Assembly: GCA_902524955.1 (NCBI GenBank)
Contig: CABZEY010000006.1
Span: 1 to 52,848, forward strand
Direction: 5' to 3'
DNA from: an uncultured Pelagibacteraceae bacterium
GTDB lineage: Bacteria > Pseudomonadota > Alphaproteobacteria > Pelagibacterales > Pelagibacteraceae
Length of the DNA: 52,848 nucleotides
Shown: positions 33,427 to 47,264 of the stretch, one piece after another
Layout of the letters: each line of letters opens with the position of its first letter
Numbering within the stretch: the stretch's first letter is position 1
Notes under the pieces: generated by a model
What the model saw: the letters and a program-made list of their open reading frames with translations, nothing else
Database searches by the model: none
What the model was told of the DNA's origin: nothing
Translations under genes and position numbers: made by a program

Positions 33427-34293
33427 GTGAATAAATTAGCAATCATTGGTGGTAGCGGGCTCTATAACATTGATGGTATTAAAGACGAAAAGTGGATAAC
33501 AGTCAAAACTCCATGGGGTGAACCATCAGATCAAATTTTAGAGGCCAAAATTTATAATAAACAAATTTTTTTTTTGCCGAGACATAGTAGAGGGCATAAA
33601 ATTAATCCATCCAATATTAATTTTAGGGCAAATATTGATGCTTTAAAACAGTTGGGAGTAACAGACATATTATCAGTATCAGCTGTAGGTTCGTTAAAAG
33701 AAGAGTTAGAGCCTGGAAAATTTGTTCTTGTTGATCAATTTATTGACAGAACGTTTGCAAGAGTAAAAACTTTTTTTGATAAGGAAATAGTAGCCCATGT
33801 TTCAATGGCAAAACCTGTAAGCCCAGGATTAATTAGGGCATGTGAGGCAACACTCAAGAAAATTAATTTAAAATATCAGGTTGGTGGAACCTACTTAGTA
33901 ATGGAGGGACCGCAATTTTCGTCTTTAGCTGAGTCAAAACTTTATAGATCGTGGGGTTGTGATGTTATTGGTATGACCAATATGCCTGAGGCGAAATTAG
34001 CTCGAGAAGCAGAAATTAGATATGCATCAGTTGCGATGGTTACAGATTATGATTGCTGGCATGAAGATCACGATGACGTTTCTGTTGATCAAGTCATAAA
34101 AACATTAATTGGCAATGCTGACAACGCCAGAAAAATGATTGTAGAAGTTGTTAAAAGTTTTGAAGAGCATATAGACCCAAAAGATCCTGCAATTAATTGT
34201 TTAGATACTGCTATTATAACTGATAAATCAAATTGGACAGAAACAACTGTAAAGCAGTTACAAAATATAGCCGGACGTGTTTTTAAAAATTAA
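33427..34293 (+). CDS. mtnP: S-methyl-5'-thioadenosine phosphorylase MtnP
   Basis: Phosphorolyses methylthioadenosine to adenine and methylthioribose-1-phosphate. The 288-residue purine-phosphorylase-fold enzyme starts at GTG with 'LAIIGGSGLYNIDGI'. It has 'FLPRHSRGHKINPSNINFRAN', 'GGTYLVMEGPQFSSLAES' and 'DVIGMTNMPEAKLAREAEI', the last with the MTAP specificity segment. No methylthioribose kinase is needed after this enzyme. The stop overlaps the mtnA ATG by one base. Confidence 0.95.
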   Translation: MNKLAIIGGSGLYNIDGIKDEKWITVKTPWGEPSDQILEAKIYNKQIFFLPRHSRGHKINPSNINFRANIDALKQLGVTDILSVSAVGSLKEELEPGKFVLVDQFIDRTFARVKTFFDKEIVAHVSMAKPVSPGLIRACEATLKKINLKYQVGGTYLVMEGPQFSSLAESKLYRSWGCDVIGMTNMPEAKLAREAEIRYASVAMVTDYDCWHEDHDDVSVDQVIKTLIGNADNARKMIVEVVKSFEEHIDPKDPAINCLDTAIITDKSNWTETTVKQLQNIAGRVFKN

Positions 34294-35345
34294 TGAAAAT
34301 TAATGGCAAACATTACCTGACTATATGGCACGATGATAATGAAAATAATGTTCACATTATAGATCAAACAAAATTACCATTTAAATTTGAAATTAAGAAA
34401 CTCGAAACATTTGAGGATGGGTATAATGCTATTAAAGATATGCTTGTTAGAGGTGCACCGTTAATAGGAGCAACAGCAGCTTATAGTTTATATTTAGCGT
34501 CAAAACAAAATGAAGATTTTGCTTTTATACAAAACAAAGTAAATGAAATCAAAACTGCAAGACCCACTGCAGTAAATCTTTCATGGGCAGCAGAAAGAGT
34601 ATTAAAAAATTTAGATAAAAATAACATAAAAAGTTCGATACTAAATGAATGCAAAAAAATTTGTAAAGATGATATTAAAATTTCTGAAAGTATTGGAGAT
34701 CATGGATTGAAACTTATAAAAAAGATTAAAAAAGATAAAATCAATATTTTAACTCATTGTAATGCCGGATGGTTAGCAACTATCGACTGGGGAACAGCTA
34801 CAGCTCCAATATACAAAGCTAGGGATGCAAACATCAATGTTCACACATGGGTTGATGAAACTAGGCCTCGTAATCAAGGTTCTTCACTTACTTCATATGA
34901 ATTATTAAATGAAAACATTGATCATAAAGTTATTGCAGATAATACTGGTGGACTATTAATGCAAAAGGGAATGGTTGATATGTGTATAGTAGGGACTGAT
35001 CGCGTCAGCAGAAATGGAGATGTAGCTAATAAAATAGGCACTTATCTAAAGGCGCTAGCTGCAAAAGATAACAATGTCCCATTTTATGTTGCTCTACCAA
35101 GCACTACATATGACAAGAATATCTCAAGAGGAGAAGATATTCCAATTGAAGAAAGATCTGATGATGAATTAAAATTCATTACTGGTTATGATGATGATGG
35201 TAAAGTTAAAAAAATAAAAATATATCCTGAAAAAAGCAAGGGTTTCAATCTAGGTTTTGATATAACACCTGCAGAACTTGTTACTGGATTTATTACAGAA
35301 AAAGGCATTTTTAAACCTCAAGAACTGATTGAAGTTTTCAAATGA
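34293..35345 (+). CDS. mtnA: S-methyl-5-thioribose-1-phosphate isomerase MtnA
   Basis: Isomerises methylthioribose-1-phosphate to methylthioribulose-1-phosphate. It is related to eIF2B subunits, 350 residues. Conserved blocks are 'MLVRGAPLIGATAAYSL', 'ILTHCNAGWLAT' with the catalytic Cys, 'DETRPRNQGSSLTSYEL' and 'GTDRVSRNGDVANKIGTY' with the catalytic Asp. It may also accept the 5'-deoxyadenosine-derived sugar phosphate. The stop overlaps the aldolase ATG (ATGA). Confidence 0.95.
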   Translation: MKINGKHYLTIWHDDNENNVHIIDQTKLPFKFEIKKLETFEDGYNAIKDMLVRGAPLIGATAAYSLYLASKQNEDFAFIQNKVNEIKTARPTAVNLSWAAERVLKNLDKNNIKSSILNECKKICKDDIKISESIGDHGLKLIKKIKKDKINILTHCNAGWLATIDWGTATAPIYKARDANINVHTWVDETRPRNQGSSLTSYELLNENIDHKVIADNTGGLLMQKGMVDMCIVGTDRVSRNGDVANKIGTYLKALAAKDNNVPFYVALPSTTYDKNISRGEDIPIEERSDDELKFITGYDDDGKVKKIKIYPEKSKGFNLGFDITPAELVTGFITEKGIFKPQELIEVFK

Positions 35346-35980
35346 ACGAGTTTTCTTTAAGAAAAAATATTATCAAGTATTCAAAACTTTTAAATCAAAC
35401 TAATCTATCACCTTTAAGATCTGGAAATATTTCTGCAAGATACAAAGATGGTTTCTTAATTACGCCCAGCGGAGTGAAATATAAAAACTTAAAACCGAAA
35501 GATATAGTTTTTGTTAATTTAAAAGGCATTTTTAAAAAAGGAAAAAATAAACCATCTTCAGAATGGAAATTACATAAAGACATATATCTTGATAAAATAA
35601 ATTCCAAAGCAATAGTCCACTGTCATTCTAAACATGCACTTATCCTCTCATGTTTTAAAAAAAAAATTCCCCCATTTCATTATATGGTCGCAGTTGCAGG
35701 TGGCGAAGATATAAAATGTGCTAAATATGCAACCTATGGTACTAGCGAATTATCAAAAAATATTATTAAAGCACTTAATGAAAGAAGCGCATGTTTAATT
35801 GAAAATCACGGTCAGGTTTCATTTTCAAATAGTTTACCGGAAGCTTTTGAACTAGCTCAGGAGGTAGAATATTTATCTGAGCAATATCTTGGCTGTTTAC
35901 GAACAGGTAAGCCAAAAATTTTATCAAAATCACAAATGCAAAAAGTTCTATTAAAAGTGAAAAATTATAAACAGGACTAA
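35342..35980 (+). CDS. ald2: Class II aldolase, probable methylthioribulose-1-phosphate aldolase (DHAP shunt)
   Basis: A 212-residue zinc-dependent aldolase of the fuculose-phosphate aldolase type. Zinc ligands are His93 and His95 in 'IVHCHSKHAL' and His156 in 'IENHGQVSF', with catalytic Glu74 in 'PSSEWKLHKD'. Placed after mtnP and mtnA with a 4-bp overlap, it most likely performs the 'DHAP shunt' reaction: methylthioribulose-1-phosphate to dihydroxyacetone phosphate plus (methylthio)acetaldehyde. The dehydratase MtnB belongs to the same fold and is the main alternative, but no mtnC, mtnD or mtnE follows. The symbol is by context. Confidence 0.75.
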   Translation: MNEFSLRKNIIKYSKLLNQTNLSPLRSGNISARYKDGFLITPSGVKYKNLKPKDIVFVNLKGIFKKGKNKPSSEWKLHKDIYLDKINSKAIVHCHSKHALILSCFKKKIPPFHYMVAVAGGEDIKCAKYATYGTSELSKNIIKALNERSACLIENHGQVSFSNSLPEAFELAQEVEYLSEQYLGCLRTGKPKILSKSQMQKVLLKVKNYKQD

Positions 35981-36118
35981 AAAAGGTTGATAATGCTGAG
36001 AGTCGGTATATACCGCGATAATTAGGGAGCTAAAAATCTTGTCGAAATCTCTAATGAACAAGATTTTAAAGTTTAAGCTTTAGCAAGCTTTAAATTTTTT
36101 TATAAAAAGGGAGGCCGA
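35981..36118 (+). promoter_or_regulatory. Structured leader / attenuator of the speD-speE gene
   Basis: The 138-nt gap holds several hand-checked elements: a palindrome CGGTATATACCG (36004-36015); 36021-36028 complementary over 8 positions (one G-U) to 36048-36055; and 36033-36042 perfectly complementary over 10 positions to 36058-36067. The last two pairs interleave (A-B-A'-B'), allowing an H-type pseudoknot or two exclusive hairpins. A terminator-like hairpin follows (next entry), then the GGGAGG ribosome binding site at 36109-36114. A -35-like TTGATA (35987) and TATATA/TATACC near 36007-36014 could be the promoter, in which case the RNA would start near 36020, just before the interleaved helices. 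The family is unassigned. Confidence 0.5.
36068..36101 (+). terminator. Terminator-like hairpin in the speD-speE leader
   Basis: Left arm 36068-36080 and right arm 36085-36097 pair at 11 of 13 positions around loop TAGC, followed by T's to 36101 (seven T's in a row from 36095). It lies 7 bp upstream of the ribosome binding site, so it would stop transcription before speD-speE (attenuation). The stem is AT-rich and weak, so it needs testing; ordinary termination of the mtn operon is an alternative role. Confidence 0.5.
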
Positions 36119-37162
36119 ATGAATAATAAAGTAGGCGAACATATCACTCTTGATTTTCATGGTGTTCATGAAAACCACAAAGCTGAATTTTACGAAAAAA
36201 TTTTTAAAAAAATCGCACAAGCAGCAAAAGTTGAAATAGTTAATATTTCTAAATACGTATTTACACCGCAAGGTGTTACTCTTTTATGTTTGTTGAAAGA
36301 AAGTCATATGAGTTTTCATACTTTTCCAGAAAAGGGTGTTGTGAGCTTTGATTTTTTTACTTGTGGGACGGTTAGTCCGAACATTTCAATTGAAATATTA
36401 AAAAAAGAATTGCCACATTCGATTGTTGTAAAAAAAGATTTTGATAGAGACTCAATCCATCACTACAAAGATATTTATAGCTCTGAAGGAATTAAAAAAT
36501 TTTATATGGTTGAAAAAATAATTAAAAACTTCAAATCCAAGATGGGTCAACATATTGAAATTTTGAAATTAAAAGAATTTGGAAATGCTCTTTTTATAGA
36601 CGGTGAAATACAAGTTGCTGAAAAAGACGAGGAATTATATTCAAGTACGTTTGTAAATTCTGGACTAAGGTTATCAAAGAAAAACTCAACCGCTGCAATT
36701 ATAGGAGGTGGCGATGGAGGTGTTGCAAGAGAATGTATTAAAAGTAACTTTAACTATATTGATTGGTTTGAGCTTGATAAAGAAGTAGTAGAGGCATGCC
36801 AAGAATATTTACCAGATGTATTTAAAAATATTAATAATAGTAATAAAGTTAATTGTATTTGGGGTGACGCTTTTAAAAATATTATTTCATGTGATGATAA
36901 AAAATATGATCATTTATTTATAGATTTAAACGATGATCAATTTTGTATTGATTTAGCATCTAAAAATATTAAAGAAATTAAAAGAATTACAAAAAAAAAT
37001 GGAATAATTACTGCACAAGTCGGTTCAAAAGATAAAAAACCAAAACAAGTCAACAACTGGATTAATACTTTAGAGGATGCTTTTGGAAATTCTAAAATTT
37101 CTGAAATTTACATTCCAAGCTTTGATTGTAGTTGGAATTTTGTTAGTTCAGTAAATAAATGA
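36119..37162 (+). CDS. S-adenosylmethionine decarboxylase - aminopropyltransferase fusion (SpeD-SpeE)
   Basis: A 347-residue two-domain polyamine enzyme. Residues ~1-120 are a class 1b AdoMet decarboxylase: self-cleavage between Glu61 and Ser62 in 'KESHMSFHTFPEKG' (Ser becomes the pyruvoyl group), His67, and Cys82 in 'FFTCG'. Residues ~125-347 are a spermidine-synthase-like domain with 'IIGGGDGGVAREC' (196-201 core), acidic 'WFELDKE' and 'HLFIDLNDD'. The domain lacks the usual Y-H-E after D-E (here Tyr174-Ser-Ser) and the D-P after the catalytic Asp269 region, so the amine acceptor may differ. Such fusions are known in several bacterial groups. It supplies MTA to the mtn genes upstream. Confidence 0.88.
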   Translation: MNNKVGEHITLDFHGVHENHKAEFYEKIFKKIAQAAKVEIVNISKYVFTPQGVTLLCLLKESHMSFHTFPEKGVVSFDFFTCGTVSPNISIEILKKELPHSIVVKKDFDRDSIHHYKDIYSSEGIKKFYMVEKIIKNFKSKMGQHIEILKLKEFGNALFIDGEIQVAEKDEELYSSTFVNSGLRLSKKNSTAAIIGGGDGGVARECIKSNFNYIDWFELDKEVVEACQEYLPDVFKNINNSNKVNCIWGDAFKNIISCDDKKYDHLFIDLNDDQFCIDLASKNIKEIKRITKKNGIITAQVGSKDKKPKQVNNWINTLEDAFGNSKISEIYIPSFDCSWNFVSSVNK

Positions 37163-47220: not shown

Positions 47221-47232
47221 TAATCTTAAATT

Positions 47233-47264
47233 AATACCCCTGCTTAAGCAGGGGTATTTTTTTT
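47233..47264 (+). terminator. Intercistronic terminator between dctP and dctQ
   Basis: A perfect 11-bp stem (47233-47243 / 47248-47258; core CCCCTGC/GCAGGGG) with TTAA loop followed by eight T's ending directly before the dctQ ATG at 47265. Partial read-through would give high binding-protein and low permease expression. The hairpin may also stabilise the dctP mRNA 3' end. Confidence 0.9.

Follow-up and report, generated by a model that had tools for sequence, protein, structure and literature searches.

A relic ald2 tail as the probable promoter and leader of speD-speE in one SAR11 genus

The stretch between ald2 and the speD-speE fusion gene (speDE) of a SAR11 bacterium is very probably a second, relic or duplicated, tail of ald2, because profiles of ald2 tails match it and a model built from the seven leaders of its genus matches, in reverse, an ald2 tail of another genus. 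It probably acts as the promoter and leader of speDE, and the best explanation as a whole, which we hold with a little less assurance, is that a relic ald2 tail was reused as a speDE promoter and short leader. In the streamlined genomes of SAR11, with their few regulators, any conserved non-coding stretch comes at a cost and calls for an explanation. The real anomaly here, which an initial annotation centred on a pseudoknot-capable leader had missed, is the conservation of approximately 70 nt together with homology to the end of ald2.

Genomic setting and distribution

The window is the whole stretch of DNA analysed, 52,848 nt of an uncultured Pelagibacteraceae genome (contig CABZEY010000006.1). 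The features used below, with the basis for each, are:

33427-34293: PNP-family phosphorylase (Pfam family)
34293-35345: IF-2B family isomerase (Pfam family)
35342-35980, + strand: ald2, class II aldolase, intact (Pfam Aldolase_II, E=4.3e-48)
35984-36118, + strand: probable relic or duplicated ald2 3' tail, now the putative speDE promoter and leader (nhmmer profile, RNA model R1)
35987-35992, + strand: -35-like TTGATA, invariant in 7 leaders
36009-36014, + strand: -10-like TATACC, 16 nt after the -35, its first four bases (TATA) invariant in 7 leaders
36021, + strand: approximate transcription start, placed 6-8 nt after the -10 from the promoter position
36025-36029, + strand: GGGAG, likely mini-ORF ribosome-binding site (sequence), overlapping segment A (36021-36028)
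36033-36042, + strand: segment B, containing the TTG start (sequence, leader comparison)
36039-36083, + strand: predicted mini-ORF TTG...TAG, (M)SKSLMNKILKFKL and stop, 14 codons in the ald2 reading frame
36048-36055, + strand: segment A' (TCTCTAAT), fully paired with A only in the window
36058-36067, + strand: segment B', pairing with B in 7/7 leaders, no covariation
36072-36101, + strand: weak hairpin (TTTAAGCTT/AAGCTTTAAA) plus T7, conserved in 7 leaders and absent from ald2 tails
36109-36114, + strand: GGGAGG, speDE ribosome site (sequence)
36119-37162, + strand: speD-speE fusion, SAM decarboxylase plus spermidine synthase (Pfam AdoMet_dc, Spermine_synth)

A nitrilase-family gene follows speDE. 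The phosphorylase, isomerase and aldolase families are compatible with methylthioadenosine (MTA) salvage of the DHAP-shunt kind (PMC10986504), a function that we infer from the families, and the gene cluster is coherent in that MTA is made by SpeE. A promoter-like pair on the minus strand, TTATCA-N18-TATAAT (10/12; 35993-35964), is oriented antisense into ald2.

We found speDE at 15 genome loci, and in seven of the eight genomes of the window's genus. The leader, likewise present in 7/8 of these genomes, is restricted to this genus (HIMB114-type SAR11), in which it occupies an ald2-speDE gap of 134-158 nt. It is a conserved leader, and the initial annotation's reading of the stretch as a speD-speE leader with a terminator-like hairpin is supported. 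The gap is close to zero at most other SAR11 loci with ald2 (-4 to +3; -11 at the relic locus L013), and in many other lineages speDE is not preceded by ald2 and its upstream region is unrelated. A search of viral contigs for the exact core pattern found none.

At three loci that lack ald2 upstream of speDE (L083, L084 and L085), an apparent nucleosidase/phosphorylase-type gene occurs instead, and TTGATT-N16-TATAAA lies immediately 5' of speDE. Several other SAR11 genera without ald2 carry a conserved motif resembling TTTTTAGTTGTNAAAAANAAAATAACAAGTNTAAAAAA approximately 20-90 nt before speDE (L087-L089, L091, L095-L097, L100 and L101), possibly an operator or a promoter of a different type.

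Origin from the ald2 tail

Six-frame and nhmmer comparisons identify the 3' end of ald2 as the parent or sister of the leader. When 27 ald2 tails of other SAR11 genera are combined into an nhmmer profile, it matches 35984-36114 (E=2.3e-6), collinear over the whole leader; in the window, only ald2 itself scores better and the next match has E=2.2. With an ald2-tail protein profile, the frame at 36000-36080 (E=0.0063) is second only to ald2 in a six-frame search of the window. The similarity of the leader to ald2 3' ends is therefore both collinear and above background, as for a relic or duplicated tail.

The reverse comparison agrees. It was a DNA search with the leader that uncovered its ald2 origin, through an out-of-genus match in genome G028 to the last ald2 codons, directly before speDE; the leader aligned locally to this tail scores z 10-16 relative to shuffled sequence. 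When 397 family genomes were searched with a covariance model built from the seven leaders (R1), the only matches were those seven and the G028 ald2 tail (E=9.2e-5), and an additional search, labelled 'order', returned the G028 match again and no other from outside the genus. Other weak DNA matches to the leader in family genomes were, where inspected, unrelated AT-rich coding or intergenic sequence.

These comparisons suggest the following course of events. The ancestral arrangement would have been that of other SAR11, with the ald2 stop codon abutting the speDE start. In the ancestor of the genus, an extra ald2 tail with its speDE junction would have been placed behind an intact ald2. The upstream half of this tail would then have decayed, save for the TTGATA-N16-TATA pair and the ribosome-binding site, and the downstream half would have kept its ald2 frame in the form of a mini-ORF of 14 codons and acquired the hairpin with T7, with the stop codon in its loop.

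A separate lineage has an ald2 relic of its own. At L013:2740-3000 (genome G050; the same locus as L086), the stretch from an mtnP-like end to speDE holds the relic of an mtnA start joined to an ald2 tail, which has an in-frame stop. A deletion of approximately 1.4 kb apparently removed mtnA and most of ald2 and spared the tail before speDE; the mtnA part of this relic is our own reading of the sequence.

Promoter

The pair TTGATA-N16-TATA is constant in the seven leaders and the intervening bases are variable, the pattern of conserved hexamers at fixed spacing in variable surroundings expected of a putative sigma-70-type promoter, from which speDE transcription would start at about 36021. The pair falls on the ald2 codons EVExxxxQYI. 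At the same codons, other SAR11 ald2 tails have 7-10 of 12 consensus matches, most often 10, and the relic tail at L013 reads TTGAAT-N16-TATAAA; the intact ald2 genes of the window's genus have only 4-6/12. These reciprocal scores, with the pair kept in the relic and eroded in the genus's own intact ald2, suggest that the relic took over a promoter formerly inside ald2.

The TTGATA pair, with a -10 that ends in CC, is absent from the output of a promoter scan, and TTGAT-N17-TATA occurs three times in the window against two expected by chance, such matches not being rare in AT-rich DNA. A scan for synonymous constraint over 87 ald2 genes shows ATA as the Ile codon at the -10 in 59/70 (against 34% overall). 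Conservation is highest over the last ~18 codons, with other segments nearly as high and relatedness not removed, so that the pattern is only suggestive.

Conservation of the core

From GCTAAAAATC through the T-run, the seven leaders are nearly identical over a core of approximately 70 nt. Between the window's subclade, L005 and the L004/L006/L007 subclade, identity at fourfold-degenerate sites of speDE is only 33-48%, and against this divergence a near-invariant core indicates strong selection, in a comparison of only seven sequences from one genus. Upstream of the core, invariance is limited to GGTTGATA, TATA and a few isolated bases; even L006 and L007, which share 97% identity in SpeDE, differ widely in this part.

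An alternative account gives a role to the promoter and the speDE ribosome site alone, and treats the mini-ORF and hairpin as neutral leftovers of the ald2 tail. The ald2 origin, the weakness of the hairpin and the lack of a significant coding signal in the mini-ORF would all fit such a passive fossil. We nevertheless consider it unlikely: the core, which lies between promoter and speDE, is the most conserved part despite the divergence at fourfold sites, it holds where the promoter spacer differs even between L006 and L007, and the hairpin with T7, which ald2 lacks, is retained in 7/7 leaders. A neutral fossil would not show this pattern of conservation.

Helices, hairpin and folding

In the window itself, the pairings described by the initial annotation are present: A (36021-36028) pairs with A' (36048-36055) over eight positions including one G-U, B (36033-36042) pairs perfectly with B' (36058-36067) over ten, the order is A-B-A'-B', and the GGGAGG site lies where it had been placed. 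Across the seven leaders, 71% of A/A' cells are paired, all eight pairs form only in the window, and the helix is essentially the ribosome site pairing with TCTCT. B/B' forms in 7/7 leaders, with nine of its ten pairs unvarying and the tenth changing only from U-G to U-A. No helix pair changed on both sides among the seven leaders, and every structure measure was reached by shuffles; the two helices conserved with covariation that mark an H-type pseudoknot were not found in these leaders. The initial annotation's caution that a full pseudoknot was improbable is borne out, A/A' being unconserved and covariation absent.

At the same codons of intact ald2 genes, 6-10 of the ten B/B' pairs are already present, most often eight or nine, as AT-rich sequence makes the codons for Lys-Ile-Leu and Lys-Val-Leu complementary. 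B/B' is thus largely inherited from ald2 codons. Relative to G028, one pair has changed from U-A to C-G on both sides through synonymous codons, which would favour some selection on B/B'. The 98-nt leader, taken from the likely start, is not more stable than shuffles (-16.9 kcal/mol against a mean of -16.6; z=-0.12), nor is the 138-nt intergenic stretch (z=-0.10).

The terminator-like hairpin consists of arms 36072-36080 and 36085-36094 followed by T7 (36095-36101), with the TAG stop of the mini-ORF in its loop. Its presence and its conservation in the genus stand (94% of cells paired over seven leaders), but as a terminator it is weak: at -5.6 kcal/mol it ranks 12 of the 132 T-runs in the window that have any hairpin, and a consensus terminator scan did not call it. 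By comparison, the leader hairpin is far weaker than a strong terminator of the classical kind elsewhere in the window (47231-47264, + strand), which consists of AATACCCCTGCTTAAGCAGGGGTATT and T8 and has -17.9 kcal/mol.

Kinship with SAM-II RNAs is not supported. The run GATAA...AGCTAAAAA, in which the initial annotation saw a likeness to the 3' part of that class, is the region 3' of the -10, the ribosome-binding site and former ald2 codons. An Rfam search of 35981-36118 returned no gathering-score match and, up to E=10, only eukaryotic-type or unrelated noise. The SAM-II covariance model (RF00521) has no match at the leader at the gathering threshold or at E up to 10, and that of SAM-V (RF01826) has none there either. 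As a control, SAM-V was recovered at 68.8 bits on another contig of the same genome (C9:3929-3993); none of the genus's seven other genomes yielded a SAM-V match. SAM-II-like matches in the source genome and its relatives lie at other loci and below the cut-off.

A metabolite-binding pseudoknot at the leader is accordingly unlikely. We likewise give very little credence to the wider proposal of a pseudoknot or alternative-hairpin riboswitch that binds SAM, decarboxylated SAM, MTA or a polyamine. The gene context, the strong conservation of the core and the formation of B/B' and the hairpin in nearly all leaders would suit it, but A/A' is incomplete in 6/7 leaders, B/B' derives largely from ald2 codons, covariation is absent with a fold z of about 0, and the RNA lacks an Rfam match and is confined to one genus. 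Aligning the leaders across SAR11, the check that the initial annotation had proposed, gave conservation without covariation and exposed the ald2 origin.

Mini-ORF and control of speDE

The GGGAG site ends 9 nt before the TTG start of the predicted mini-ORF (an alternative start is ATG at 36054). The frame is open in 7/7 leaders and the ribosome site is AGGG-like in six of the seven, L002 having AGAAAG, which is not a good site; a short ORF with a ribosome site that stays open in relatives is what a leader-peptide attenuator would have. Five sites in the mini-ORF vary among the seven leaders, three synonymously, one as K/R and one as I/V (P about 0.12), a pattern compatible with coding but not significant. 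Invariance also covers GCTAAAAATC, 5' of the TTG start, for which coding does not account.

Translation-coupled control of speDE through this mini-ORF is plausible but tentative. A ribosome that reached the stop codon of the mini-ORF would sit over the hairpin and keep it open, and transcription would continue into speDE; if the mini-ORF were not translated, the hairpin would tend to halt transcription. The ribosome site and start codon of the mini-ORF lie within the A/A' and B/B' pairings, which would tune its translation rate. It is a long shot that the tail of a metabolic gene became a translated mini-ORF with a regulatory role, one that senses polyamines or MTA through its nascent peptide or its rate of translation and gates a bacterial SAM decarboxylase-spermidine synthase. 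If true, this mini-ORF would be a bacterial parallel to uORF control of eukaryotic SAM decarboxylase.

The same elements could be read as a small trans-acting regulatory RNA of approximately 80 nt (36021-36101), derived from the former gene tail with its own promoter and terminator, and with speDE transcribed by read-through. Its own promoter-like pair, a length of ~80 nt ending at a hairpin with T7, and conservation at the level of sequence speak for such an RNA. We judge it rather unlikely, given the weakness of the terminator, a ribosome site and open frame that suit a translated leader, and a position directly before speDE in every case.

Implications

If the reuse of an ald2 tail as speDE promoter and leader is right, the rise of a promoter and leader within a tiny genome can here be traced: a promoter-like pair and the ribosome site of the next gene would already have been present at the end of the gene upstream, and both would have been kept when it was duplicated or lost. 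It also carries a caution, in that base pairs spotted by eye in an AT-rich leader can be a legacy of codons.

Comparison with known systems

Known spermidine riboswitches, a class of SAM-I variants reported in Gram-positive genera, have a multi-helix aptamer and use a terminator to control polyamine genes, speD and speE among them (PMC10853860). The speDE leader differs from this class in having no sequence or structure match to it. No title or opening of an abstract in our literature search describes the speDE leader, and the main text of the SAR11 RNA survey (Meyer 2009, PMC2704228) does not mention speD, speE or polyamines.

Pelagibacter has a tandem SAM-II/SAM-V riboswitch (PMC2704228, PMC11508383). 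In the window's own genome (G000), SAM-V likewise adjoins a sub-threshold SAM-II-like match (C9:3929-4101; L164, L166), in tandem as described for Pelagibacter. SAR11 hosts, SAM-related genes and H-type pseudoknots give the tandem and the structure proposed for the speDE leader their likeness; the speDE leader differs in its lack of an Rfam match.

In DapZ and MicL, a promoter within the end of a coding sequence yields a short RNA that ends at a hairpin. The promoter-like pair in a gene 3' end with a hairpin downstream is similar here, but the tail before speDE is a relic apart from the intact gene and lies directly before another gene. Leader-peptide transcription attenuators and SpeFL of Escherichia coli have a short ORF with a ribosome site just before a polyamine gene and a stop in or near a terminator-like hairpin. 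Although the predicted peptide of the speDE leader is a gene-tail relic with no run of a single amino acid, and the hairpin is weak, the leader shares with these systems a predicted short ORF, a likely ribosome site and a stop codon in the hairpin loop.
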